A stretch of DNA of 45,631 bases from a virus. A program made the position numbers and the translations under genes. Under the pieces are notes generated by a model. It had not been told where the DNA came from and searched no databases. It worked only from the letters and a program-made list of their open reading frames with translations. Location: positions 1 through 45,631 of the IMG/VR virus record IMGVR_UViG_3300044612_003744. One strand, given 5' to 3'. Shown in pieces: positions 3,118 through 38,910 of the stretch. The first letter of the stretch is position 1; each line of letters starts with the position of its first letter.

Positions 3118-3804
3118 ATGGAAAATCAATTCCTTCTAGTTGATTGCTGCAACAACGGAGGATTTACCATGAGTCTTAACGAGTCAGTCTCCGATAGGGG
3201 ACTGACTAAGTTCAAAGGTAAATTCCAAGAAGCAGAAGCAATCAATAAAAATAAAAGAATCTATCCATACGGAGTTCTTGACGAAAATGTTAAGAAACTT
3301 CTGCCGATTATCCAAAACCGTGGCCTGATCGGAGAACTCGATCACCCAACCGATTCTATAATCCACTTTGAAAAATGCTCTCACATTGTTACTAAACTAT
3401 GGTGGGAAGGCAACAACCTAATGGGAGAGGGAGAAATCCTCAATACACCACATGGGAAAATTCTAAAGGCCCTACTGAACGATGGAGTTCGTGTGGGGAT
3501 ATCAAGCCGTGGAGTAGGAAACGGAAGAAGCGACGAGAATGGAATCCTTGTGATTGGTGAAAGCTACAAACTCATTACCTTCGATGCTGTAGCAGATCCA
3601 AGCACACACTCAGCATTTCAGGAGAAAGTGTCGAGTGGTAAGAAAGAAAGTTATGCCCCAACTGCAAATAATGCAGAAATTTCTAAAAATGCGGTTAAAA
3701 ACGAAAGTAGCCGCATACATAATGTCAGAAAAGATGCATTGTTGGCTTGTTTGGGCGGAATAATCGAACAACAAACACGAAACATTACAGCGAGGTTAGG
3801 CTAA
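3118..3804 (+). CDS. Prohead maturation serine protease, T4 gp21-like
   Basis: 228 residues, start at 3118 after AAGGAG. It contains the family blocks in order: FQEAEAINKNKRIYP, GELDHP (catalytic His), HIVTKLWWEGNNLMGEGEIL, TPHGKILKALL, VGISSRG (catalytic Ser) and FDAVADPS. These match the T4 gp21 / S77-type phage prohead protease. The enzyme digests the scaffold and trims capsid and internal proteins at [LI]-x-E sites during head maturation. Its stop overlaps the scaffold start (TAATG). A downstream in-frame ATG (MSLNES) would remove 16 extra N-terminal residues and is an alternative start. Confidence 0.93.
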   Translation: MENQFLLVDCCNNGGFTMSLNESVSDRGLTKFKGKFQEAEAINKNKRIYPYGVLDENVKKLLPIIQNRGLIGELDHPTDSIIHFEKCSHIVTKLWWEGNNLMGEGEILNTPHGKILKALLNDGVRVGISSRGVGNGRSDENGILVIGESYKLITFDAVADPSTHSAFQEKVSSGKKESYAPTANNAEISKNAVKNESSRIHNVRKDALLACLGGIIEQQTRNITARLG

Positions 3805-4734: not shown

Positions 4735-6171
4735 ATGAACGCTAATTCTAGATTTTTGAACGAGGCTAGGGAGCTAGAAACTCGTTGGAAGCAGACCGGA
4801 CTCCTTGAAGGCATTCAAGATCGTTATGTCCGCTCCGCTACCGCAGTTCTGCTCGAAAACCAGAGACTCATGAACGAAGTCTCAACCGATACTGGAGATG
4901 TCGCACAGTTCAAGAGGATTTCAATTCCACTTGTTCGTCGTATCTACCCACAGCTTATCGCAAATAAGATCGTTTCCGTACAGCCTCTCCTTGGCCCAAC
5001 CGGCTTGGTCTACTATCTCCGCTTCCGTTATTCAAGCAACAAGGGCGCTACCCGTGGTGCTGACAATAACGGCGGATTCCCCGGCGACGATGCCAACTCA
5101 CTCATGCAGAGAGCCGATGGTACTGCCAATCTCGACATCTTCTATTCCAGCCAGTTCATCCAGAATGAAACAACCAGCACTGATGCTGGCGCTGGTGTTG
5201 TAAGCGTGTTCGCTCCTCTTGAACACACGCCAATCCTTGCCGGAACAATAACAGGCACTATCTATGATGGCGCTACTGCTATTCAAACATTCACCGTGTC
5301 TGCTAGCGGAACTTTCACCTTCTCAGATATCGGCTCTCCTTCACCAAAGGTTACATCTGGTACTCTTCAGACAACCACAGGCGAACTCACCCTTACTTGG
5401 AACGGCGCTCCCGGCTCAAACAACGCAGTTTTGAGCTACGAATACAACATGGAGTGCAACCAAGATCTTCCTGAAATCAATCTCGTAATTGAATCAGAAG
5501 AAATCGCTGCTAAGACCCGTAAGCTCAAGGCTGTATGGTCTTATGAAGCACAGCAGGATCTTCGCTCACAGCACAATCTTGACGCTGAAGCTGAACTCAC
5601 CGCTGTTCTCGCTCAGGAAATCAACCTCGAAATCGACCGTGAAGTTCTCACCGATCTTCGCAACAACGCAGGTACTGTCTCAGCTTGGGACTTCAACACT
5701 GCACTCGGCGAAACGATCAAGGAAAAGTACGAAAGCCTTTATGTTAAGGTTGTCGAAATTTCCAATGTCATCCACAGAAAGACCCTTCGTGGTGGCGCAA
5801 ACTTCATCGTGACCTCACCTGAAGTTGCTTCAATCTTTGAAACAGCAACAGCCGGTTTCGCTCCTGCACCTTCTGAAACCTTCACAAGCTCACTCGGCAT
5901 CCAGTATGTCGGCACCGTGAACAATCGCTGGAGACTCTACAAAGATCCTCTCTTCCCAAGCAATCAGTTGTTGATGGGTTACAAGGGCGACTCTTACATG
6001 GACAGCGGATACTTCTACTGCCCATATGTTCCATTGACCCAGACACCAGTTGTTCTCGATCCAGAGAGCTTCTGCCCACGCAAGGGAATTCTCACTCGCT
6101 ATGGAAAAAAGCTGCTTCGTGAGGGGGCAAAATTTTACGCACGCCTCAGTATTGCTAATTTCGTCATCTGA
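4735..6171 (+). CDS. Major capsid protein, T4 gp23-like
   Basis: 478 residues. Blocks typical of gp23 include LVRRIYPQLIANKIVSVQPL (about 56-75), GPTGLVYYLRFRY, and KTRKLKAVWSYEAQQDL followed by an ELTAVLAQEINLEIDREV helix. The N-terminal propeptide is expected to be removed by the prohead protease; LLE at 39-41 or the Glu at 48 are candidate cut points. Residues about 165-225 form a Thr/Gly/Ser-rich beta segment, probably the surface insertion domain. Codon use is richer in G and C than in most of the window, as expected for a very highly expressed gene. A strong terminator follows. Confidence 0.95.
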   Translation: MNANSRFLNEARELETRWKQTGLLEGIQDRYVRSATAVLLENQRLMNEVSTDTGDVAQFKRISIPLVRRIYPQLIANKIVSVQPLLGPTGLVYYLRFRYSSNKGATRGADNNGGFPGDDANSLMQRADGTANLDIFYSSQFIQNETTSTDAGAGVVSVFAPLEHTPILAGTITGTIYDGATAIQTFTVSASGTFTFSDIGSPSPKVTSGTLQTTTGELTLTWNGAPGSNNAVLSYEYNMECNQDLPEINLVIESEEIAAKTRKLKAVWSYEAQQDLRSQHNLDAEAELTAVLAQEINLEIDREVLTDLRNNAGTVSAWDFNTALGETIKEKYESLYVKVVEISNVIHRKTLRGGANFIVTSPEVASIFETATAGFAPAPSETFTSSLGIQYVGTVNNRWRLYKDPLFPSNQLLMGYKGDSYMDSGYFYCPYVPLTQTPVVLDPESFCPRKGILTRYGKKLLREGAKFYARLSIANFVI

Positions 6172-7963: not shown

Positions 7964-8836
7964 ATGGAATTCCGTAATTTTATTGAAAACGCATCATTAA
8001 ATGAGTGTGTGGTTGCTGGTGTGCGACTACAGGATGGTGTTGTATTGGCCAAGAATCGTGATCGTGGATACAAGGCCAATGTTGAAATAATTCATGAATT
8101 AATTAATGGTACAGAGGTTATGTACTGGCATGATATTGATACAGATTGGTGTGAAGGGATGAATGAGTATGGTTTAGGGATGGTGAGTAGTAGTTTGATG
8201 GTGAATCAGGATGAGAAGGAAGGATTGCGTGTTATAAATGGCAAGAAGGTTCCTGACGACAAGCATAAGAAGATAGTAACAAATGAGGGCAATAAGATAA
8301 GGCAGGCTTTGTCGCATGTTAATCTTAAAGACATGGTTCATAGCATTGTGAATGGCAAGAATAAAAAGGGTAAGAATGTTGGTCTTCGTGGTCAGACATT
8401 GGTAAGTGATGGTGTTAATTTATATGCTTTAGAAATCACAAAAGATAGCAAGGTTGTTAAAAGGGTTTCGGATGATGATTCTGTGACTGTGAGAACAAAT
8501 CATGGCATATATGACAAAGAAGCTGGTTATAACAAGGGTAGGAAGAAGGAGTCTTCTCACAGCAGGATGAATTTGGCTCAGAAGAATTTGGTGGATGTTA
8601 ATTTGCCAAGTGATGTTTTGGACATTTTGAAAAAAAAATATGTATCTGATCCATTTTTGAATCCTTACAGGACAAAGAGTCCATGGTTGATGCATACGAC
8701 TGGTCAAATTTTATTGGATTTGAAAAATTTGCGTGTTATGGTCAGGATGGATAAGGACGAGGGTGTATTTCGTGGTATTGTAAATAACTTGCCTATTGGT
8801 TATAATTCAAAGATCAGGGTTGTTGTTGAGCATTAA
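7964..8836 (+). CDS. Ntn-type (choloylglycine/C45/C69-like) amidohydrolase with head-targeting propeptide
   Basis: 290 residues starting MEFRNFIENASLNE-C. From Cys15 the layout is that of N-terminal-nucleophile amide hydrolases: CVVAGVRL (nucleophile Cys15), VLAKNRDRGY (Asp33), WCEGMNEYGLGMV (65-74), NLYALEIT (152-159), VRTNHG (Asn179) and SSHSRM (Arg201), matching the Cys, Asp, Asn and Arg positions of bile-salt hydrolase/penicillin V acylase. These enzymes need removal of everything before the Cys. The preceding triplet L-N-E fits the prohead protease, so cleavage after Glu14 would expose the nucleophile. The substrate is unknown; an amide in the cell envelope or a signalling molecule is possible. 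Confidence 0.82.
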   Translation: MEFRNFIENASLNECVVAGVRLQDGVVLAKNRDRGYKANVEIIHELINGTEVMYWHDIDTDWCEGMNEYGLGMVSSSLMVNQDEKEGLRVINGKKVPDDKHKKIVTNEGNKIRQALSHVNLKDMVHSIVNGKNKKGKNVGLRGQTLVSDGVNLYALEITKDSKVVKRVSDDDSVTVRTNHGIYDKEAGYNKGRKKESSHSRMNLAQKNLVDVNLPSDVLDILKKKYVSDPFLNPYRTKSPWLMHTTGQILLDLKNLRVMVRMDKDEGVFRGIVNNLPIGYNSKIRVVVEH

Positions 8837-9246: not shown

Positions 9247-9395
9247 TTTTCACCAAATTGACATAGTCAAATTTCTAAGTGTTTGTTGGTTTACATAAAT
9301 AAATTGGATGTTTCATCATATGAAAAAATTAAGTATTTTTTCAAGGAGAAAAATGGGAGCATCTTCAGTAACAGGTACAGGCAACGGAGCAGTAG
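9231..9395 (+). repeat. Duplicated promoter/leader/N-tag module, copy 1
   Basis: From GTTGAAAAAGGAATGATTTT to the codons for MGASSVTG this stretch matches 10077-10242 almost base for base, with an offset of 846-847. It contains a gene 3' end, a late promoter octamer, a roughly 50-nt leader and the start of a tagged protein. Confidence 0.85.
9294..9301 (+). promoter_or_regulatory. Late-type promoter octamer CATAAATA
   Basis: Lies 51 nt before the ATG at 9353, leaving a leader that carries the AAGGAG ribosome site. The arrangement is identical in the second copy of the repeat. Confidence 0.55.
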
Positions 9396-9934
9396 AGAAT
9401 TCTTTTCCGAGAATTCAAAATAATGTAAAAATACTAAACCTAGCAGCAGATGTGAATTCAGCAATTGCTAACGCATCATCTTCCTCTGAAATTTCGATTA
9501 TAGTGTCGTATACCAATTCGGTTGTATCGCTTCCTGTTCATCAGATATCTGCATCCGATGATGGAAAACTGTTTTTATTAGATCATGGACCAAATGGATT
9601 TATAACATTGCCAGAATTAAGCACTACTACAATTGGGCAGAAATTTCGATTTTTAACCACAGTTCGCCCAGATCAATTTTTCATCCAGTGCTATCCTTTT
9701 TCTGATTCAATGACTGGTAGTCTAACGCTATATAAAAATGGCGTAGCTGAAACTAGAACTTTTGCTGCCAGTGCTACGAGTAACAAAATCGAATATGGAA
9801 CCAATAATAGCACTGGTGGCATCATAGGAAGTTATGTGGTAGCGATTAGTTTGGGAACTATTTACTGGATACAAGGAGATGTCATTGCAGATGGTGGTCA
9901 AACTGTAAGTAATCCCTTTGGCACGAATACATAA
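9353..9934 (+). CDS. Putative head decoration/structural protein with MGASS tag
   Basis: 193 residues from the ATG after CAAGGAG; a longer frame to 9308 has no ribosome site. The N-terminus MGASSVTGTGNGA is shared with the proteins at 10200, 23815 and 24391. The body is Ser/Thr/Ile-rich and beta-predicted, without a signal peptide or catalytic motif, typical of phage capsid decoration or fibre-type proteins. The late promoter and duplicated leader support a virion role. Function inferred. Confidence 0.6.
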   Translation: MGASSVTGTGNGAVENSFPRIQNNVKILNLAADVNSAIANASSSSEISIIVSYTNSVVSLPVHQISASDDGKLFLLDHGPNGFITLPELSTTTIGQKFRFLTTVRPDQFFIQCYPFSDSMTGSLTLYKNGVAETRTFAASATSNKIEYGTNNSTGGIIGSYVVAISLGTIYWIQGDVIADGGQTVSNPFGTNT

Positions 9935-10076: not shown

Positions 10077-10242
10077 GTTGAAAAAGGAATGATTTTCACC
10101 AAATAAACATAGCTGAATTCCTAAATATGTGTTGGTTTGCATAAATAAATTGAATGTTTCATTATGTAGAAAAATTAAATATTTTTTGGAGGAGATAAAA
10201 TGGGAGCATCTTCAGTAACAGGAGTCGGTGCGGGAGCAGCAG
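10077..10242 (+). repeat. Duplicated promoter/leader/N-tag module, copy 2
   Basis: Second copy of 9231-9395. It begins at GTTGAAAAAGGAATGATTTT and runs into MGASSVTG coding sequence, with most substitutions in the leader. After the tag the two proteins become unrelated. Confidence 0.85.
10140..10147 (+). promoter_or_regulatory. Late-type promoter octamer CATAAATA
   Basis: Same position relative to the ATG (52 nt) as in the other module copy; leader ends with GGAGGAG. Confidence 0.55.
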
Positions 10243-10547
10243 ATGTCACCCGTGGTCCCGGCAATCTTCGTGATCAATACGCATCGTTGCTTGATCCACA
10301 TGTTGTCTGGCATGGCACAATTTACAATAATGATGGTTCAGTTACTGTTAATTTACCATCTAATATTAAAGATGTGCCTGAAAAATTGACTATTCTTTGT
10401 TCTGGTAAGACATATGGTGTTGATAAGAATCTTGATGGCGATGGTCTTGTTGAAAGCTTTGACATTACCGGAACTAAGAAAAGGGAAGTCGATTTCATTG
10501 TAATCAAGAGTCCATCTGCTTTGTTTACTTCTGATTATAATCCTTGA
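10200..10547 (+). CDS. Putative head decoration/structural protein with MGASS tag
   Basis: 115 residues with a strong GGAGGAG ribosome site. N-terminus MGASSVTGVGAGA is nearly identical to that of the 9353 protein, while the rest (a compact beta domain with VVWHGTIYNNDGSVTVNLP) is unrelated. Probably a virion surface or decoration protein whose shared tag makes the same contact. Three nt separate it from the next gene. Confidence 0.6.
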   Translation: MGASSVTGVGAGAADVTRGPGNLRDQYASLLDPHVVWHGTIYNNDGSVTVNLPSNIKDVPEKLTILCSGKTYGVDKNLDGDGLVESFDITGTKKREVDFIVIKSPSALFTSDYNP

Positions 10548-10550
10548 TAT

Positions 10551-10970
10551 ATGATTTTATCTTTTAAGGAAGATTTTGAAAAAAATTGCACCCCGTGTGG
10601 ACATCATTGGACACACGGGGATTTTGTTGAATTAAGCGGAAGTCATTTCAAGCATTTTTCAACTCTTTTGAAGTGTAAATTTATAGATCCTAATGAATTT
10701 CGAGTTCAGAATATAATTTCTTTTGATGCTATTGGGGCCAATAGAACACTTTATTTTATTTGTAATTTAGCTGACAAGTATGGTGTGGTTATTACGGGAA
10801 GAGCGCAGCCTAATTTGGTTGGTCCTTCTATAACTGGAAATGACAATTTTTATTCTGGCTTGCAATTGGAAAGATTATTGAAATGGTATAAATACTATGG
10901 ATTTGAATGTAAAGAAATAGATGGCATCTTTCATGTTAAAAGGAGTCCTAAAAATGAAGTACAAGATTAA
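10551..10970 (+). CDS. Hypothetical protein, possible GNAT-like fold
   Basis: 139 residues. The sequence [15 protein letters not shown] followed by [16 protein letters not shown] resembles the beta4-alpha4 end of GNAT-like domains found in many phage small proteins (pattern L..wY...GF). No clear acetyl-CoA P-loop is seen, so the fold call is tentative. Codons about 14-24 form a perfect 9-bp hairpin (10591-10620). Confidence 0.5.
10591..10620 (+). other. Perfect hairpin inside the 5' end of a coding sequence
   Basis: CCCCGTGTG (10591-10599), a 12-nt spacer, CACACGGGG (10612-10620), followed by ATTTTGTT. It lies 44 nt after the stop of the 10200 gene and inside the next ORF. It could attenuate or stop transcription from the strong late promoter while still encoding protein. 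Confidence 0.55.
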
Positions 10971-11379
10971 AACAGAAGAAAAGAAATATGTTGTTATGGA
11001 TAAAAATGACAATATTATTTCCAAATGGTCTAAAGAAACGATTGATGATGCTGGCGGTTTGGAAAAATGCATTGAGCGTTTTAAGAAAGCTAATCCTAAA
11101 TCAGAAATTGAAATGATTGGTGAACCAGCACCAGCACCAGAGCCAGCACCAGAGCCAGCACCAGCACCAACACCAGCACCAGAGCCAGAACCAACACCAG
11201 CACCAGCACCAGAGCCAGAACCAGCACCAGCACCAGAGCCAGAACCAACACCAGCACCAGCACCAGAGCCAGAACCAGCACCAGCACCAGAGCCAGAACC
11301 AACACCAGAACCAACACCAGCACCAGAGCCAGAACCAACACCAGAACCAGCACCAGAGCCAGCACCAGTTAATGGCTGA
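10954..11379 (+). CDS. Small protein with long Pro-rich dipeptide tail
   Basis: 141 residues from the ATG after AAAAGGAG; it overlaps the previous gene by 17 nt. The first 55 residues are a small charged domain ([14 protein letters not shown]...). The remaining roughly 85 are alternating Pro with Ala, Glu or Thr ([10 protein letters not shown] pattern). Such tails form stiff extended rods, as in TonB-like spacers. No signal peptide is present, so a virion spacer or stalk is more likely than a periplasmic role. Function unknown. Confidence 0.65.
11122..11370 (+). repeat. Low-complexity CCAGCA/CCAGAG/CCAACA repeat
   Basis: About 250 bp of 6-bp units coding for X-Pro dipeptides, with higher-order blocks (Ala-Pro-Glu-Pro-Glu-Pro-Thr-Pro). 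Length is likely to vary by slippage; assembly errors are also possible here. Confidence 0.9.
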
Positions 11380-19957: not shown

Positions 19958-20824
19958 TTACTTTTTTCTTTTTTTAATTTCAAGAATCAGATTCTGCATT
20001 AGTTTTGTTGCTTTGTCGATTAGATTGCTTTTCTTGACATCGATATTATTTTGGCTGTATTTTTCCTTGTATCCAAAAACAGTGCCTTCAATGCAGTTTT
20101 CTGGCACAAAGATACCTGAATAACGACATTGATTTACAATTGGCATGATTGCTTCTTTGGGGTTAATATAACTATTTTGCTTGCAGTCAACCATGGATAG
20201 TGGTATTTTCCTGTTCACATAATCATCTGCTCCATCATCTCCGTGAATGAAAAATGCAGCGACTTTTCCTTCGTAATGGTTTTTCAGTAGGTCACGATAT
20301 TTTCCGCTTTGTTCTGCTGCTATGGTCAGCTTTGGGTTTTTTATGTCTTTTCCATAGATTTCTTTTGCTTGTTCTTGAGTAAGAGTGAGGTTGACGCAGA
20401 CAAGTCTGTCAAATAAGGCTTTGACTTGACTACTTGGTCCAGACCAATGAACAGGAGTGAAGACTACAAATCCATCGGCTTTTTTTAATTTTTTATAAAC
20501 ATCTTTTTCGTGCATAAGATCATTTGTTCCATCACCTTTATCATAACAATCACAAGGATAATGGCAATGAAAACCATTGCTTGTTCCGATGCAACCTTTA
20601 CATGGTCTAATTTGAGGATCAGTATCCATGACCTTTAGATCGATAAGAGTGATCTTCACTTCTTTGGTGATTTTTTGAATGGCTTCATTTAGAAGAAAAC
20701 TTGTCTTGCTATTTCCTCCAGAACACGAGTCTTTTGTTCTGGGGCTACCCTGAAATGCAACAATATTGATTTTGTCGTTATTATTGCCTGTTGCTTCTGC
20801 TAAATACTCAATAAAGCTAATCAT
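19958..20824 (-). CDS. FMN reductase-like flavoprotein with capsid-targeting-like N-terminus
   Basis: 288 residues. After MISFIEYLAE (1-10), almost the T4 capsid-targeting leader, comes NIVAFQGSPRTKDSCSGGNS, the FMN loop of NAD(P)H-dependent FMN reductases/iron-sulfur flavoproteins, then CKGCIGTSNGFHCHYPCDC (Cys cluster) and FVVFTPVHWSGPSSQVKALFDR. The predicted prohead-protease cut after Glu10 would leave the enzyme domain intact. It has GGAAG before the ATG and sits apart from metabolic partners. Inferred: a redox enzyme carried in the head. Confidence 0.8.
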   Translation of the reverse strand: MISFIEYLAEATGNNNDKINIVAFQGSPRTKDSCSGGNSKTSFLLNEAIQKITKEVKITLIDLKVMDTDPQIRPCKGCIGTSNGFHCHYPCDCYDKGDGTNDLMHEKDVYKKLKKADGFVVFTPVHWSGPSSQVKALFDRLVCVNLTLTQEQAKEIYGKDIKNPKLTIAAEQSGKYRDLLKNHYEGKVAAFFIHGDDGADDYVNRKIPLSMVDCKQNSYINPKEAIMPIVNQCRYSGIFVPENCIEGTVFGYKEKYSQNNIDVKKSNLIDKATKLMQNLILEIKKRKK

Positions 20825-20878: not shown

Positions 20879-21208
20879 ATGAGAAGTTACAAAGAGTTTC
20901 TTGCAGAAAAATATACAATTCGAGATTCTGGCGAGATTAATGAAGCAGTTGCCAAGAAAAAGGAAACTTCCAAGAAGAAGGAATCTGCCAAGAAAGACAA
21001 AAGCACAGACAAGATTAATTGCATGCAGGAAATTGTAGCTGAGTTGAAAAATACATTTAAGCATTACAGTCTTACGACAAGAAAATATGTGTGGGAAAAA
21101 TTAATTTCTACGAAAGGTAAAGAGCTTGTTGGCAAGTTGGTTCATGATCCAATGATCTATCGTACAACCAGTCCATTTACTCAATTGGTTACTGACACCA
21201 AAAAATAA
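20879..21208 (+). CDS. Small basic protein with capsid-targeting-like N-terminus
   Basis: 109 residues after GAGGAGATC. MRSYKEFLAE (1-10) is nearly the T4 internal-protein leader; cutting after Glu10 gives a very Lys-rich mature protein (KKKETSKKKESAKK). This composition is like T4 internal proteins packed with DNA. Divergent from the flavoprotein gene. No other domain seen. Confidence 0.65.
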   Translation: MRSYKEFLAEKYTIRDSGEINEAVAKKKETSKKKESAKKDKSTDKINCMQEIVAELKNTFKHYSLTTRKYVWEKLISTKGKELVGKLVHDPMIYRTTSPFTQLVTDTKK

Positions 21209-23814: not shown

Positions 23815-24378
23815 ATGGCAGCTACAACTACACAAGGGACCGGACCCGGTTCCGCTTCCAATATTAAGCCATTGATTATCAATGGTACTGTAAAAACATT
23901 AAATCTCGAATCAAACGCTGTTACCGCACCGAAGCTTGATAACAACGCACTATCAAAAGCGCCAGTAGTTCTTAACACAGCAACTCAAACACTTAACTCC
24001 AGCTATGCTGGTATTCCTTTGGTTTTCGATAGAGCGGCTGGTGTTGTTGTAACTCTTCCAGAAGCAACTGGTACTGGCGATATCTATAAGTTTTATGTAA
24101 ACACCACTGTAACTAGCAATAGTTATAAGATTCAAGTTGAAAATGCAACTGATGTTATTTGCGGCCTTGCTTTTGGTGATGATGGTGATGGCGAACCAGC
24201 TAATGCTTGGGCTTCAGGTGCTTCTTCTGACACCATCACAATGGATGGCAGCACACAGGGCGGCATTAAAGGCGACAGCGTTGAAATTACTGACATTGCG
24301 TCTGGTCTTTTCTCTTGCAAGGTATTCATTACCCAAAGTGGTACTGAAGCTACTCCTTTCAGCGCAGCAGTTTCTTAA
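23815..24378 (+). CDS. Putative head decoration/structural protein with MGA-type tag
   Basis: 187 residues after TAAGGAG. The N-terminus MAATTTQGTGPGSA matches MGATTTEGTGPGIA of the next gene and MGASSVTG of the 9353 and 10200 proteins. The body is Ala/Thr/Val-rich beta structure (LTLPEATGTGDIYKFYVNT-like strands; GDDGDGEPANAW turn), typical of capsid decoration or tail-fibre-like domains. Late promoter upstream. Confidence 0.65.
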   Translation: MAATTTQGTGPGSASNIKPLIINGTVKTLNLESNAVTAPKLDNNALSKAPVVLNTATQTLNSSYAGIPLVFDRAAGVVVTLPEATGTGDIYKFYVNTTVTSNSYKIQVENATDVICGLAFGDDGDGEPANAWASGASSDTITMDGSTQGGIKGDSVEITDIASGLFSCKVFITQSGTEATPFSAAVS

Positions 24379-24390
24379 CACTGAGGTATT

Positions 24391-24717
24391 ATGGGGGCTA
24401 CGACCACAGAAGGTACAGGTCCGGGGATTGCAAAAAGAGACACCAAGGGAAGACTATCCCTTGGTGTCTCTTCGTTAATTGGTCCCAAAATAGTTGCATC
24501 TGGGATCACAACTTTGAATGGCACATCTGAATATATTTACATACCTCAACAGATTGGATTAGTTAGCGATTACTGCGTTATTTTAACAAACAACTCTTCT
24601 AATCATCCATACATTTCAAACGCTTTGTTGCCCATTTCTGGGTCAAATGAATGGAGATTCCAGATAACTGCTGGAAATAATGATGTCGTTCACTATCTTG
24701 TAGTTAAAATAGGTTAA
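24391..24717 (+). CDS. Putative head decoration/structural protein with MGA-type tag
   Basis: 108 residues after GAGG. MGATTTEGTGPGIAKRD is the shared tag; the rest is a small beta domain (GTSEYIYIPQQIGL). Codons 16-28 lie within a perfect 16-bp hairpin. Gene follows its paralogue by 12 nt, so transcription from the same late promoter is likely. Confidence 0.6.
   Translation: MGATTTEGTGPGIAKRDTKGRLSLGVSSLIGPKIVASGITTLNGTSEYIYIPQQIGLVSDYCVILTNNSSNHPYISNALLPISGSNEWRFQITAGNNDVVHYLVVKIG
24435..24472 (+). other. Perfect 16-bp hairpin inside the 5' end of a coding sequence
   Basis: Stem AAGAGACACCAAGGGA (24435-24450), loop AGACTA, TCCCTTGGTGTCTCTT (24457-24472). It lies 57 nt after the stop of the 23815 gene and within codons 16-28 of the next. 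Strong enough to act as an attenuator or RNase/processing site. Confidence 0.65.
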
Positions 24718-28191: not shown

Positions 28192-28980
28192 TCATTCAGG
28201 TAGCTTATATTTATATTTTTGCAAGTCCATTTTAACAAATGGTAACTTTGGCAATTCTCTCTTTTCTGTATATATTGGCTCCAAACCATTATCTAGTTCT
28301 TCGTTCCAATTTTTGAGCATTTTTATGTCGGTGAAATAAGATTGATGGTTCATCAGTTGTTCTTTGTGCTTTCTAATAGCCCTACACACTCCGATTACCT
28401 TGAGATCATCATTTTGAAACAAAGGTCCACCACTGTCTCCAACCATACAATATGCATTTGTTCTAATAAGACCTTTGAATATATTTGGGTTGTATGTCTT
28501 GGTTTGTGTGATTTGGCCATAATCAATTCTTGCATCATCCATCATCCCAAATCCTATGTGGAATATATTTGAACCCATGAATATTTTATGGTCGAAATTA
28601 ATTTGCACTGTCGGCAATTTCTCATCTGACTCAAAAACACCTATTGCCAAATCTTCTTTTGGTTCCAAGGCATAAATGAACATAGGATAAGTTTTTTCTG
28701 ATTCGATTTCTGCGTGTTTTTTGTATTTGAATATTTTTACAAAGAATGGACCGTTACTTTCCGCTATGTGTTCTGCTGTAATAATAGCGTTGCGATACTT
28801 GTTGCCGTTTTTGGTTGATCTGACTATGAAGCCGCTTCCTCCAGTTTCATTTTTTGTATCAGTTATGCATACAGTTGGATAAAGACAAGATGAATAAATA
28901 TTATCTGGAACTTTTTGTGCAAATCCAGTTGTAATACTAATCATTAAAATAAAAAAAGACGATAATATGAATTTTTTCAT
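28192..28980 (-). CDS. Secreted trypsin-like serine protease
   Basis: 262 residues. MKKFILSSFFILMISITTGFA is a Sec signal peptide. The catalytic triad of a chymotrypsin-fold protease is visible: His in IITAEHIAES, Asp in KEDLAIGVF, Ser in YCMVGDSGGPLFQ; GGSGFIV is the usual N-terminal strand. It would work in the periplasm or outside the cell. The stop is followed within 11 nt by the next gene's start. Phages seldom encode such an enzyme. Confidence 0.88.
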   Translation of the reverse strand: MKKFILSSFFILMISITTGFAQKVPDNIYSSCLYPTVCITDTKNETGGSGFIVRSTKNGNKYRNAIITAEHIAESNGPFFVKIFKYKKHAEIESEKTYPMFIYALEPKEDLAIGVFESDEKLPTVQINFDHKIFMGSNIFHIGFGMMDDARIDYGQITQTKTYNPNIFKGLIRTNAYCMVGDSGGPLFQNDDLKVIGVCRAIRKHKEQLMNHQSYFTDIKMLKNWNEELDNGLEPIYTEKRELPKLPFVKMDLQKYKYKLPE

Positions 28981-31470: not shown

Positions 31471-31854
31471 ATGAAGACTTTTCTGCAATATATCAAAGAA
31501 CAAGGTGACGGCGAAGAAATGCAAACAGTTGCTCCTCCCGGCGACATGCCATTGGATAAAGAGTCTGGTGACGGTGACAAACCAATCGTCCCCGGAGATG
31601 GCCATTCTGAAAGACACAAGGAAAAGTTGAAGAATGCATTTAACAGATTCCTTAATGAAAAAATGCTTGTAGCGGTCAAACATGGAAAAATATCTAAAGA
31701 AGACGCTCTAATGTTGTTGAAAACTGAAATATCGGCTTTCTCCAATATGATTGGCGCTGATGCAAATAGCGCAGGCACAGAAGGGAAGAATGCCATGGCA
31801 ACCAATTCCGAACCTAGGTCGCCAATTCCAAATCAACCAACAGCGAGTGGCTAA
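31471..31854 (+). CDS. Small protein with capsid-targeting-like N-terminus
   Basis: 127 residues. MKTFLQYIKE (1-10) differs from the T4 leader MKTYQEFIAE by conservative changes only and has the I-K-E cut site. The mature part is polar, with one helical segment (HKEKLKNAFNRFLNEKML). GGAG precedes the ATG. Strong candidate for a head-internal protein. Confidence 0.65.
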   Translation: MKTFLQYIKEQGDGEEMQTVAPPGDMPLDKESGDGDKPIVPGDGHSERHKEKLKNAFNRFLNEKMLVAVKHGKISKEDALMLLKTEISAFSNMIGADANSAGTEGKNAMATNSEPRSPIPNQPTASG

Positions 31855-34781: not shown

Positions 34782-35210
34782 ATGAATCAAAATTTTACTA
34801 CAGATCAGGTTCAAGAACAGCTTGTGCAATTACAAGTTTTTTTAGAAGAAGCCAAGCAAAAGTGGGATTCAGAAAATCCACAACCAAAATCATGGTTCGA
34901 TAAGAACAAGGCATATATTGTTAAAACAACTATTTTTTTGATAGGAATAACTGATAATCTTATCAATTTAGTTGAAACATTTTTGCTTAAAGGGCCGGAT
35001 AAAAAGATTGCTGTTTTAGCAATTGCCACGCAACTTTTTGACTATGTTGCTTCAAAAGCATTTCCAATATGGATTTCTCCATTTGTTCCAGTTATCAAGC
35101 AAATAGTAATATCAATAATAATCAGCAATATGATTGAATTCATAGTTTCTAAATACAAAGAAGGTGCTTGGAAATGGGAGAATAAAACAGATGCCTCTAG
35201 AACAGTGTGA
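34782..35210 (+). CDS. Holin-like membrane protein
   Basis: 142 residues. A soluble N-terminus (about 45 residues, helical) is followed by hydrophobic segments at about 47-69, 74-92 and 98-122 and a short basic tail. The layout resembles some phage holins, but no family motif is seen. It overlaps the subtilase gene by 20 nt. Could be a holin, a channel or an envelope anchor. Confidence 0.5.
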   Translation: MNQNFTTDQVQEQLVQLQVFLEEAKQKWDSENPQPKSWFDKNKAYIVKTTIFLIGITDNLINLVETFLLKGPDKKIAVLAIATQLFDYVASKAFPIWISPFVPVIKQIVISIIISNMIEFIVSKYKEGAWKWENKTDASRTV

Positions 35211-36138
35211 TATTATCAATTTACTTCCTTTTGTTCGTGAAGACATTGCGACAGTGCAAGATGTCCAACAAAGAGCAGGATGGGAAATTACTGCTTTCAA
35301 TCTTTTGGATACTTGGTCTTTGACACAGGGAGAAGGCGTTGTTGTCGCAGTCCTCGATACAGGTTGTGATTTGAATCACGATGACCTCAAGGGAAATCTT
35401 TTAGAAGGCAGAAATTTTGTAAAAAAAGGCATGCCTCCAATAGATGATCAAGGCCATGGAAGCCATGTGGCGGGAACTATTTGCGCTTTGAACAATGATT
35501 TTGGAGTAGTTGGAGTTGCGCCAAAAGCGAAAGTCATGCCTGTCAAAGTTTTGGACAGCAAAGGAGCAGGTAATCTGTCAGTTGTGGCAGAAGGGATCAA
35601 ATGGTCTGCTGATCAAGGTGTTGATTTTATCGTAATGTCTCTTGGTTCTCCGACACCTACACCTGTGATTTATGATGCAATTAAATATGCAGAATCAAAA
35701 GGTGTTGTAACTTGGTGTGCAGCAGGCAACGCTGGCAAGACAAGACAGATATTTTATCCAGCCGCTTATCCAGAAGTTATTGGAATAGGCGCTATTGATG
35801 AGAATTTGCATCGTGCCAACTTTAGTTGCACAGGCCCAGATCTTGATTTTTTGGCACCGGGTGTTGGAATTTTAAGTACAGTGCCTGATAATTGGTATGC
35901 AATTTTATCTGGCACATCTATGTCAACTCCTTTCGCAGCAGGAGTTGGTTGCTTGCTTCTTTCTCATAAAAGAAAAATACAACTTGGAATCAATCTTAAA
36001 ACAGCAAAAGATTATATTGATGTTTTGAGAAATTATACTATTCCAACAACCGATCCTAAATTCGCAAATCAAAATTTTTTAGAGGGATTTGGAATTATTG
36101 ATCCACGCAAAGTTACAGAATGGATGCAGCGCAACTAA
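35191..36138 (+). CDS. Intracellular-type subtilisin-like serine protease (S8)
   Basis: 315 residues from the ATG at 35191 (GGGAG upstream); an in-frame GTG at 35164 is possible. Catalytic triad: VVAVLDTGCDLNHDDL (Asp), DDQGHGSHVAGTI (His), AAGNAG (oxyanion Asn) and LSGTSMSTPFAAG (Ser). There is no signal peptide, and the N-terminal INLLPF resembles the LIPY inhibitory extension of Bacillus intracellular subtilisins. It may cleave host or virion proteins. Confidence 0.93.
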   Translation: MPLEQCDIINLLPFVREDIATVQDVQQRAGWEITAFNLLDTWSLTQGEGVVVAVLDTGCDLNHDDLKGNLLEGRNFVKKGMPPIDDQGHGSHVAGTICALNNDFGVVGVAPKAKVMPVKVLDSKGAGNLSVVAEGIKWSADQGVDFIVMSLGSPTPTPVIYDAIKYAESKGVVTWCAAGNAGKTRQIFYPAAYPEVIGIGAIDENLHRANFSCTGPDLDFLAPGVGILSTVPDNWYAILSGTSMSTPFAAGVGCLLLSHKRKIQLGINLKTAKDYIDVLRNYTIPTTDPKFANQNFLEGFGIIDPRKVTEWMQRN

Positions 36139-36722
36139 TCTTTTGAAGGCAATACTGCTGGAGGGAGATCATAAAATATAAAATCTTGTTCGCTGCTCAA
36201 GCTGCCATATCCTTTTTGGCCTTCTTTTCCACCTTTTGCCTGACTTTGTACTTTTCCATCTTTTTCTCCTGATCCTTTCTTTTCTCCAATAACTCCTTTT
36301 CCTTGAGCTATTTGCTGCATTGCTTTTGCAAGTTTTTGGTGCATTTGTTCCGAGTATGGTAATTTATAAACTCTTGGTTCTTTTCTTTTCTTAATCTTGA
36401 AAGGAAACAAGTGGTTTTCATTTTGTTCTTCTTCTTCGATGCTTGATGCCCAAATCAATATGCTGCCAGAATCTGCTGTTTTTAATTTTGATGGTTCTTT
36501 AACCAAAGACCAATGAACCGTGAATTTTTCTGGCATAACTTGTTCTGTCGGCCATCCTGACAAACTACTTACAGAGTGCCAAAGACCTAAACTAAAGTAA
36601 AGTACTACCGAAACCACAATTGCTTTGAGCCACCAATATCCTTTGCCGAGAATGATATACCATAAACACATAGCAGAAATAATCACAAATGTGATTGAAA
36701 TCCCGATGATTGTGTTGTCCAT
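36135..36722 (-). CDS. Membrane-anchored hypothetical protein
   Basis: 195 residues after AAGGA. Two N-terminal hydrophobic segments (about 3-24 and 30-50) are followed by a soluble domain and a Gly/Lys/Gln-rich tail. Last gene of the operon containing the ExbB/ExbD-like pair, 8 nt after the ExbD-like gene. It may be an accessory subunit. Its stop overlaps the subtilase stop by 4 bp on the other strand. Confidence 0.6.
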   Translation of the reverse strand: MDNTIIGISITFVIISAMCLWYIILGKGYWWLKAIVVSVVLYFSLGLWHSVSSLSGWPTEQVMPEKFTVHWSLVKEPSKLKTADSGSILIWASSIEEEEQNENHLFPFKIKKRKEPRVYKLPYSEQMHQKLAKAMQQIAQGKGVIGEKKGSGEKDGKVQSQAKGGKEGQKGYGSLSSEQDFIFYDLPPAVLPSKD

Positions 36723-36730
36723 TTTTTTCC

Positions 36731-37366
36731 TTACGGTGCTGATGGCACCTCAAATGTGTTCTGCTTTGTCCTTCCAATCATCTTTTTCTGAATTGTGTTT
36801 GATGATTCTATTTCGCCATTTTTGTTTAATTTGAAACGAAGAGCAGTTTTTTCATCACCTTGTGAATCCAAAACCACTTGACTTATCATCATTGTTTTAA
36901 GTTTTGGATTTACTTTGTCGATCTGAATAGTGACAGGGCATGGTCTTTTATCATTCATTTTATAAGCATGAACATTAACGCAATACTCACCAACATGGAA
37001 TCCACGGAATGTGATAATCTCTCGATTGTAGGGATATTTCATAGGCCCTTGAGGGGTTTCCACCATGTCGTTTCGGAATCCCAAATCGTCACGGTCAAGG
37101 TGCATAAGTCCAACCTCTCTGCTCCTGAAAAAAACAAGATTGCCAAGAGGGTCTTCGACATATATGTCTATATCGTTGTCCATATCATCTGGCCATGTCA
37201 TAGTGACGATTAACTCTGCCTTAACTTCGACAGATGATTTGCTTTGATCTTTATTTTGGTTTATGAGAGCAAACGACAATACGAAAAGAGCCGTAAATGC
37301 AAGAAGCATATTAAAAAGCAAATCCAAAAAAGATGTATTGCAACTATAGTGCTTTCTATTGATCAT
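36731..37366 (-). CDS. ExbD/MotB-like channel subunit with YfaP/DUF2135-like domain
   Basis: 211 residues from the ATG at 37366, which overlaps the ExbB-like stop (ATGA) and follows AGGAAG. A single transmembrane helix reads TSFLDLLFNMLLAFTALFVL, with Asp15 placed as the essential proton-carrying Asp of ExbD/MotB/TolR. The outer domain has MTWPDDMDNDIDIYVEDPLG, GLMHLDRDDLG and FHVGEYCVNVHAY, a DUF2135/YfaP-like beta domain in place of a peptidoglycan-binding OmpA domain. Together with its partner it should form a proton-driven complex in the inner membrane. Confidence 0.75.
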   Translation of the reverse strand: MINRKHYSCNTSFLDLLFNMLLAFTALFVLSFALINQNKDQSKSSVEVKAELIVTMTWPDDMDNDIDIYVEDPLGNLVFFRSREVGLMHLDRDDLGFRNDMVETPQGPMKYPYNREIITFRGFHVGEYCVNVHAYKMNDKRPCPVTIQIDKVNPKLKTMMISQVVLDSQGDEKTALRFKLNKNGEIESSNTIQKKMIGRTKQNTFEVPSAP

Positions 37367-37872
37367 TTTGCTTCCTGTTTTTGCGCTATTTTGTTCAGAT
37401 GCAAACCAAGAATCAATGCTTGCATTTTTAGACATTGTCCGCAGATCAAACCAACTAGTGTCGTATACAAAGCAGTTGCCATGCTCTTTCCTAGTTCTGA
37501 CAAAAGTCCCTGAATGGTTTGTTGGTTTGATATATCGAGGTTTTCAAAACCTGCCAACATCATGCAGAATCCCACTATTGTTCCCAACATCCCAAGATTG
37601 AGGCAAAGCTCACTTGTGAACCAGATTGTTTCTTCTCTTCTTGCAAAAGATTCGATCTTTTCTTTGGTAATATTGTTTTCATTTTCAGTCAAGAAGATAT
37701 CTCTGCCACATTTAATGCTCATAATGTAAAATATAACTATGGTAGCAATGCTTAAGTAGCTTGCATCTTTTTCCCAGAGTACTTTTACGAATCCAAGGTA
37801 AAAGGAAAAGACTGTTGCCACAATGAATAATGTGAACAAAAGCCACCATTTAAGAAATGATTCAAATTTCAT
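37363..37872 (-). CDS. ExbB/TolQ/MotA-like proton channel subunit
   Basis: 169 residues. Hydrophobic segments at about 9-30, 38-55, 89-109 and 130-150. The block LNLGMLGTIVGFCMMLAGF (91-109) followed by LGKSMATALYTTLVGLICG (127-145) is the conserved channel signature of the MotA/TolQ/ExbB family, including the Thr residues that line the pore. The gene overlaps the McsA-like gene by 11 nt and the ExbD-like gene by 4 nt, so all three are translationally coupled. Confidence 0.82.
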   Translation of the reverse strand: MKFESFLKWWLLFTLFIVATVFSFYLGFVKVLWEKDASYLSIATIVIFYIMSIKCGRDIFLTENENNITKEKIESFARREETIWFTSELCLNLGMLGTIVGFCMMLAGFENLDISNQQTIQGLLSELGKSMATALYTTLVGLICGQCLKMQALILGLHLNKIAQKQEAK

Positions 37873-38377
37873 TTTGAGCCTTTTTGTTTTTGAGTTTATC
37901 TACTTTCTGCTTCAATTCATTCGCCAATTCGTAATTTTCTTCAGAAATTGCCAATTGCATTTTGGATTGCAATATGACAATTTCATCTTCTGTGTTTAGA
38001 TAAAATCCTGTCGTATCATGTTTTTTTGGTCTTTTGCCAATATGTTTGTATCCAACCTGACATTTTGTAATCATTGCCAGAATCTTGTCTCTGAATGATT
38101 CGTAGCACATGTCGCATCCAAGTCTTGATTTTTTGACAATGTCTTCAAAGCAACAATTGCATTGAGAACACTTTTTTATATCTTTTTGATATTTATCTGT
38201 TATATTTTCAATGATGCCCATAAGTTCTTCAAGGGCTTCCACGCTATTTTTTTTGTATTGTAAATAAGCGCACTTTTCGCAAACCATTTTTTGCACAAAT
38301 TCGCCGCCATCAGAAACTAGTATCTGATAAGACTTCGAGTTTGGACAAGGCGTTCCATTAAGAGGACAGTTTTCCAT
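37862..38377 (-). CDS. McsA-like protein (zinc fingers plus UVR motif)
   Basis: 171 residues from the ATG at 38377 after AAGGA. Cys pairs at C33xxC36, C70xxC73 and C88xxC91; SRLGCDMCYESFRDKILAMI and YKHIGKRPKK match McsA, the activator of the arginine kinase McsB. The C-terminal LQSKMQLAISEENYELANEL is a UVR motif that in McsA and UvrB/C binds partners, including ClpC in the McsA case. The phage protein could redirect host ClpC-type proteolysis. Confidence 0.78.
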   Translation of the reverse strand: MENCPLNGTPCPNSKSYQILVSDGGEFVQKMVCEKCAYLQYKKNSVEALEELMGIIENITDKYQKDIKKCSQCNCCFEDIVKKSRLGCDMCYESFRDKILAMITKCQVGYKHIGKRPKKHDTTGFYLNTEDEIVILQSKMQLAISEENYELANELKQKVDKLKNKKAQNEI

Positions 38378-38379
38378 AT

Positions 38380-38910
38380 TCAATCCTTGTTTTCAGATGC
38401 GACGATCTTCTTCAAATCATCCAACTTTTTGTAAATTATTTTCTTTTCATCATCTGTGATTTCATCCTTGAAATCCATTAACATTTTACGGGCAAAGGAA
38501 TCATATTTCTTGGAAAATCCAATTCTTATTTCCAATAATTCTTTGCTGTATTTAACAACATCTTCTTTTTTGGCGATGCTCGGATTATCAGATTCATAAT
38601 CCTTTTCCGAAAATTTATTGATTTCTTGTTTCCATGCTGATTGCAGCTTTTCTGACTCTTGGCCTATCTGTTGCGAAAAAACAAGTATAAATGTATGTTT
38701 TTCAATTGGCTTCAAAATTGAAAAACTTTTAACATCATTTGTTTTCTTGTCTATTATCTCAATTTTATTCCAATACTGTTGCGAAAAAGTAGAATCGTTA
38801 AAATTTTTGTAAACTGAAATGGCATTTTTATAATCATTATGAGTCGCCTTTGCCTTTGCTGGTTCATCGTAGCCAACAAAAGCAAGCAAAATAATCAAAA
38901 TTATTTTCAT
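38380..38910 (-). CDS. Exported helical hypothetical protein
   Basis: 176 residues from the ATG at 38910 after AAGGGA. MKIILIILLAFVGYDEPAKAKA is a Sec-type signal peptide; no lipobox Cys. The mature protein is charged and helical (KLDDLKKIVASENKD end), perhaps a coiled coil. It precedes the McsA and ExbB/ExbD-like genes in the same operon, so a periplasmic partner of that complex is possible. Confidence 0.6.
   Translation of the reverse strand: MKIILIILLAFVGYDEPAKAKATHNDYKNAISVYKNFNDSTFSQQYWNKIEIIDKKTNDVKSFSILKPIEKHTFILVFSQQIGQESEKLQSAWKQEINKFSEKDYESDNPSIAKKEDVVKYSKELLEIRIGFSKKYDSFARKMLMDFKDEITDDEKKIIYKKLDDLKKIVASENKD

Follow-up and report, generated by a model that had tools for sequence, protein, structure and literature searches.

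Why would a bacteriophage encode what looks like an ion-driven motor of the bacterial envelope? The question is raised by an operon in a 45,631-base virus record, IMG/VR IMGVR_UViG_3300044612_003744, which was analysed over its whole length (the window). On the minus strand, from 38910 to 36135, five tightly packed genes encode an exported helical protein, a McsA-like protein and three proteins that we call B, D and C. A sequence-only reading had placed these five genes in one coupled operon and seen in B and D a proton channel pair of the ExbB/ExbD or MotA/MotB kind. All five genes are where it placed them, and both the pair and its operon neighbours hold; it missed the status of C as a third core gene, the spread of the trio among phages, its bacterial relatives and their link to pyrroloquinoline quinone (PQQ).

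On balance, we favour the view that B-D-C is related to ExbBD-TonB and TolQR-TolA but distinct from both, a phage-encoded envelope energiser in which an ion-driven B-D motor would act with C. The homology, the gene order, the invariant motor residues and the bacterial PQQ linkage are observed; the stoichiometry, ion flow, motion, transducer role of C, time of expression and phage function are inferred.

Scanning IMG/VR with an alignment of D, we found 180 relatives and kept the best 80, which together with four phage genomes and the window make up a phage set of 85 loci. B lies directly upstream of D in 79 of them and C directly downstream in 81, always on the same strand, and the remaining loci are mostly contig ends or carry inserts. 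The core unit is three genes, B-D-C. The search for the pair in other large phages that the sequence-only reading had proposed thus finds the trio in about 80 IMG/VR loci, on contigs of up to 527 kb; an IMG/VR scan using B as a single protein found no relatives.

Among isolated phages, tblastn with D identified 27 records, all from Rhizobium or Sinorhizobium phages: Pootjesviridae (150-160 kb), I1_18 (171 kb), N3_19 types (68 kb) and the temperate 16-3 group (60 kb). Their D copies are annotated without function, as hypothetical protein or as p040 in 16-3. Every isolated-phage neighbourhood examined has B upstream and C downstream of D, with a 245-amino-acid gene resembling a GIY-YIG endonuclease inserted between B and D in NV1.1.1 and an annotated Seg-like homing endonuclease at that position in RHph_TM3_3_14B. 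Bacterial contamination of the viral contig is ruled out by the T4-type capsid genes of the window (head maturation protease, 3118-3804; major head protein, 4735-6171) and by the presence of the trio in isolated phages.

B (37363-37872, minus strand, 169 amino acids) had been credited with a MotA/TolQ/ExbB signature, and it matches the Pfam model MotA_ExbB (PF01618) at 1.2e-7, with 32 bits against a gathering cut-off of 22.9. In the family alignment of B, 25 of 25 members match this model at E < 0.1, the strongest at 5e-10; PDB matches of the family profile include TolQ (2.5e-5), MotA (2.5e-4) and ExbB (0.013). Hydropathy delineates four hydrophobic stretches (3-34, 35-61, 85-114 and 130-159), with a very short cytoplasmic loop and no tail. 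Having four such stretches and almost no cytoplasmic part, B is therefore a minimal version of the MotA/TolQ/ExbB family. T138 is kept in all 82 phage-set sequences and T98 in 80; two rhizobial phages have N at T98. G94, G97, G101 and G141 are also conserved. The profile alignment sets T98 and T138 on T145 and T178 of TolQ, which are known polar residues of the channel family.

D (36731-37366, minus strand) is, as had been claimed, a single-helix partner with an Asp in the motif FLDLLF. Its longest open reading frame begins at the first in-frame ATG, at 37435, and adds 23 residues. Since homologues lack residues 1-23 of this long frame (no counterpart in 81-84 of 85), the likely start is the ATG at 37366, which forms an ATGA overlap with the stop of B, visible in the sequence, and gives a protein of 211 amino acids. 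Asp15 counted from this start is Asp38 of the long frame. Lack of conservation of Asp15 would have refuted the sequence-only reading. It is not refuted: this residue is Asp in 85 of 85 phage D proteins, where it is the sole residue of the helix invariant across every sequence. Once bacterial D proteins are included, the Asp is present in 154 of 156. The two others, alphaproteobacterial proteins from Baikal metagenome-assembled genomes (MAGs; loci L151 and L160), are possibly non-conducting variants.

The AlphaFold2 model of D (mean predicted local distance difference test score, pLDDT, 82.8) has one helix at 33-64, a linker of about 10 residues and strands from 75 to 213, with pLDDT > 90 over most of the beta domain. 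Invariant residues of this ectodomain, in long-frame numbering, are D88, D90, L113, R115, D116, D117, G119, E139 and R144; the acidic D88, D90, D116, D117 and E139 suggest a putative metal site. The outer part had been described as DUF2135/YfaP-like, and this description is supported: hhalign aligns the D profile to two DUF2135 proteins (probability 84.6, p 6.8e-6), and the motif DxD-x-x-V-x-x-P-x-G ... D-x-x-x-G ... E ... G-x-Y is in register. D scores below the gathering threshold of Pfam DUF2135 (PF09906), where two of 27 members reach E < 1, the lower value being 0.029, so that "DUF2135-like" is a fair label and family membership is not established. Unlike in DUF2135/YfaP proteins, the domain in D is tethered to a motor helix.

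Comparison of D with the PDB by sequence and by fold yields no confident match; the top fold matches are all-beta proteins with template-modelling scores of about 0.15, which we regard as meaningless. Among viral structures, the ectodomain is similar to portions of uncharacterised proteins from Cellulophaga phage phi4:1 and from Campylobacter phages. We read this likeness as one mobile beta domain and not as evidence of a structural role for D.

C (36135-36722, minus strand) follows D and has no family or fold match in Pfam, NCBIfam or the PDB, fold search included. AlphaFold2 predicts a hairpin of two helices (3-25 and 30-53), a small beta-beta-beta-alpha-beta domain, a disordered Gly-rich linker of about 35 residues and a short C-terminal strand. 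K33, G56, R117 and K194 are invariant in the alignment of C (A8), and a motif LPPxxLPxK is conserved at the C-terminus. As the third operon gene, with a transmembrane (TM) anchor and a periplasmic part, C resembles the third component of the Ton and Tol systems. C is probably a transducer or adaptor, since its gene stands where TonB or TolA is encoded in the related operons and keeps its position as faithfully as B and D do. Since the modelled D heads lie near the membrane and C is short, the lengths indicate that B-D-C can reach the inner periplasm and probably not the outer membrane. In one phage clade (L058, L059, L061, L069, L071, L078 and L080), C is about 300 amino acids long and carries an extra part.

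A GTDB scan with D gave 367 relatives, the best 80 of which were examined. The B-D-C order recurs here on bacterial chromosomes, with B adjacent to D in 77 of these loci and C in at least 64, and no B-D-C member has a name or model of its own in NCBIfam. At least one PQQ-system gene lies within the examined flank in 67 of the 80. For loci longer than 15 kb, such a gene is found within 8 kb of B-D-C in 48 of 50, which is not a random sample, as the 80 loci were selected for closeness to the phage query, with many from Burkholderiales. NCBIfam names in these neighbourhoods are PQQ_enz_alc_DH, PQQ_ABC_bind, PedC, TIGR03866 (propeller) and PedF. They cover a PQQ-dependent alcohol dehydrogenase and components of a PQQ-linked ABC transporter, and tie bacterial B-D-C to PedABC/PQQ-dependent alcohol dehydrogenase clusters. 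Across 398 Pseudomonadota genomes, D occurs in 16, and pqqC is present in 12 of these 16 and in 57 of the 382 genomes without D (odds ratio 17; Fisher p = 3.2e-7, kinship among genomes not corrected). This link raises the question of whether quinoprotein systems need ion-gradient energy. As a side observation, a lipoprotein-like gene lies near or directly after C in 56 of the 80 bacterial loci (for example L154:9073-9777 and L092:9108-9860); it has no NCBIfam name and no counterpart in phage loci, and is a candidate fourth bacterial component.

The tree of D places 74 of 79 bacterial proteins on one side and the IMG/VR proteins on the other, together with four alphaproteobacterial D (L086-L089) and with L090, which comes from a short MAG contig and is possibly itself viral. 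Support is weak for many deep branches, and those of the rhizobial phages are long and unsure. Closest to the main phage clade are the marine alphaproteobacterial L086-L089, of which L088 has PQQ genes on the same contig. Judged from these sequences, the phage forms appear old and mostly separate from the bacterial ones. Because the split is deep, we consider the trio long maintained in phages and not a recent pick-up. A recently acquired, host-derived metabolic gene is ruled out by the same split.

In phages the gene context is of another kind. Pootjesviridae carry B-D-C between the gyrase A and late sigma factor genes, and other phages among primase, ribonucleotide reductase and nuclease genes. 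Taken together, the genes around the phage trio belong to DNA metabolism, sigma factors, sugar-nucleotide functions and proteases, with one lysozyme among 88 neighbours, and PQQ genes are absent next to the phage copies. We found no universal phage companion gene; recurring proteases (trypsin-like, subtilase and ClpP-like) are each confined to separate clades. The 16-3 group has a trypsin-like protease directly upstream of B (Pfam Trypsin_2). Trypsin-like exported proteases also occur near B-D-C in separate phage clades (window 28192-28980, minus strand; L166:4247-5146; L002:4219-4941; L010:8606-9508). The retention of B-D-C in unrelated phages with invariant motor residues makes it likely that the trio is useful to infection, and phage 16-3 of Sinorhizobium meliloti makes this testable.

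How might such a trio work? The ion-driven motors MotAB, ExbBD, TolQR and ZorAB have been reviewed (PMC9389320), and the helix Asp of ZorB is required for Zorya defence (PMC11890865). In the light of these systems, ion-driven motion is the natural reading of a putative B ring with Asp-bearing D helices. We hypothesize that B probably forms a ring around two D helices, and that ions, most likely protons, would cross B past Asp15 (Asp38) of D, opposite T98 and T138 of B. Their passage would shift D relative to B, and the DUF2135-like heads near the membrane would act jointly with C, as the transducer, on some inner-periplasmic target. To judge from gene linkage, bacteria probably use the trio for alcohol oxidation by PQQ-dependent periplasmic enzymes, perhaps to power the delivery of cofactor or metal to the apo-enzymes. 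In phages it would be a separate infection-phase module, probably expressed with early or middle genes, that powers or alters an inner-periplasmic process of the host. We favour such an infection-phase module because the 22 phage records searched encode no PQQ alcohol dehydrogenase, because the trio has no lysis context and because in Pootjesviridae it is flanked by the genes for gyrase A and the late sigma factor. Our leading guess, though a rather doubtful one, is that in phages the trio does periplasmic work of the kind it does in bacteria; superinfection exclusion comes next, at slightly lower probability.

Several observations weigh against a motor of this kind and this function. D matches neither the ExbD nor the MotB model of Pfam and is tied to these proteins by its helix-Asp architecture only. 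Two bacterial D proteins, as described above, lack the Asp. The 5:2 assembly known for such pairs, and the interface, are putative for B and D. With an ectodomain apparently of insufficient length to reach the outer membrane, C would not act exactly as TonB or TolA does. The PQQ linkage is observed in bacteria only, and a PQQ alcohol dehydrogenase is absent from all 22 phage records searched. Even in bacteria the link is not universal: B-D-C on Azospirillum plasmids has no PQQ gene within 7 kb and, on an A. brasilense plasmid (L180:3790-8085), lies beside BON-domain and N-acetylmuramoyl-L-alanine amidase genes.

Comparison with known systems defines what is shared and what is not. B-D-C has the gene order of ExbB-ExbD-TonB and TolQ-TolR-TolA, with a ring subunit, a single-helix Asp partner and a third membrane and periplasmic protein, and it retains the TolQ Thr equivalents in B and, near the start of the D helix, the Asp as in ExbD and TolR. 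Unlike in these systems, B combines four TM stretches with a nearly absent cytoplasmic domain, and the all-beta head of D fits neither the sequence model nor the periplasmic fold of ExbD/TolR. C differs from TonB and TolA in having two TM helices instead of one and a short ectodomain, and it lacks their C-terminal fold and periplasm-spanning linker. The MotA-MotB and PomA-PomB stators share with B-D-C the four TM stretches and the partner-helix Asp, whereas B has no large cytoplasmic loop, D has no OmpA-like peptidoglycan-binding domain (no Pfam match, and a different predicted fold) and the trio has no flagellar gene link.

Known settings of ion-driven MotA/ExbB-family motors are flagella, Ton, Tol, gliding and Zorya defence. 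While motors of this family are thus known, the DUF2135-like head, the third protein C, the minimal size, the wide phage distribution and the bacterial PQQ link are new here. In the open-licence full-text literature we found no description of a conserved virus-encoded set of such motor genes, of a phage ExbBD-like pair, of DUF2135 in phages or of ExbBD with quinoproteins. More tentatively, and with somewhat less than even confidence, we propose that B-D-C represents an ion-driven envelope motor of a new class, having a third subunit peculiar to it, which would energise PQQ-dependent periplasmic oxidation in Proteobacteria and would form an ancient separate lineage, taken over as a host-envelope machine by double-stranded DNA phages of 60 kb to >500 kb. 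If true, quinoprotein systems have an unsuspected energy input.

One alternative is superinfection exclusion, or guarding of the envelope: a motor made early would alter the inner periplasm or the membrane energy at the entry site and block DNA ejection by a second phage. All three proteins are membrane or periplasmic, the Pootjesviridae neighbourhoods are of early or middle type, and in temperate 16-3 the trio lies about 5 kb from the immX genes. The bacterial relatives, however, are metabolic by linkage and sit outside phage-defence islands, and we give this role a low probability.

Auxiliary metabolism, in which the phage trio replaces or boosts the host B-D-C and sustains PQQ-type periplasmic oxidation while host expression is shut off, would account for the strong alcohol oxidation linkage of the bacterial homologues and for the nearness of L086-L089, including the PQQ-bearing L088 contig, to the main phage clade. 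The phage copies are nevertheless deeply diverged and not host-like, and the dehydrogenase is missing from the phage records, leaving this explanation with a low probability.

MotAB-family channels conduct ions when unplugged. A late proton leak through B-D that dissipates the membrane potential and aids holin/spanin lysis could exploit this property; help with lysis had been among the suggestions of the sequence-only reading. The trio sits with DNA-metabolism genes, its neighbours (the single lysozyme aside) are not lysis genes, and a leak needs no conserved third protein; B-D-C is probably not a lysis cassette, and the leak itself seems very unlikely.

ZorA-ZorB belong to the same motor family and need the Asp of the ZorB helix for function (PMC11890865), and the sequence-only reading had proposed their imitation. 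B matches ZorA profiles weakly (34.3 bits in NCBIfam, where the cut-off is 500, and 22.9 bits in PADLOC), and the trio has no long ZorA tail, no OmpA-type peptidoglycan-binding ZorB domain and no ZorC/D/E neighbours, so the imitation finds no support; by its sequence features, B-D-C is not Zorya. The weak ZorA matches speak for a counter-defence decoy, in which B and D mix with and poison ZorA/ZorB or the host TolQR/ExbBD. Such a decoy is highly improbable given that no active-site residue is lost, that the heads and third protein are different, and that homologues on chromosomes have other gene links.

Other genes surround the trio in the window. The McsA-like gene (37862-38383, minus strand) overlaps B and encodes CxxC motifs and a UVR domain (Pfam UVR 2e-5), scoring 54 bits against NCBIfam McsA, below the cut-off of 210. 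The first gene of the operon (38380-38910, minus strand) encodes the exported helical protein, with a signal-like N-terminal sequence. Among the loci examined, both have homologues only in the window and in L006, L007 and L008; they are clade-specific companions and not core. Convergent with C is a subtilase (35164-36138, plus strand; Pfam Peptidase_S8 2e-52), found only in the same four loci and 76, 70 and 68 % identical to the copies in L006, L007 and L008, respectively. It is a conserved neighbour of the window's clade only and lies outside the core.

Elsewhere in the window, a motif like MKTFxQYLxE, MRSYKEFLAE or MISFIEYLAE begins several unrelated proteins (489-851, minus; 20879-21208, plus; 31471-31854, plus; 19958-20824, minus; 7964-8836, plus). 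Such N-termini presumably resemble the capsid-targeting N-terminus of T4 internal proteins. One of these proteins resembles a flavodoxin/NADPH-FMN-reductase-like enzyme, which may be packaged in the head. A second motif, (G/A)A(S/T)(S/T)(V/T)xGTGxG, is found as a variant in each of four small plus-strand proteins, at or near the N-terminus (9308-9934, 10200-10547, 23815-24378 and 24391-24717), and might be a repeated peptide that decorates the virion or serves as an anchor. The protein encoded at 10921-11379 (plus strand) ends in a long repeat, a TonB-like proline-rich stretch.

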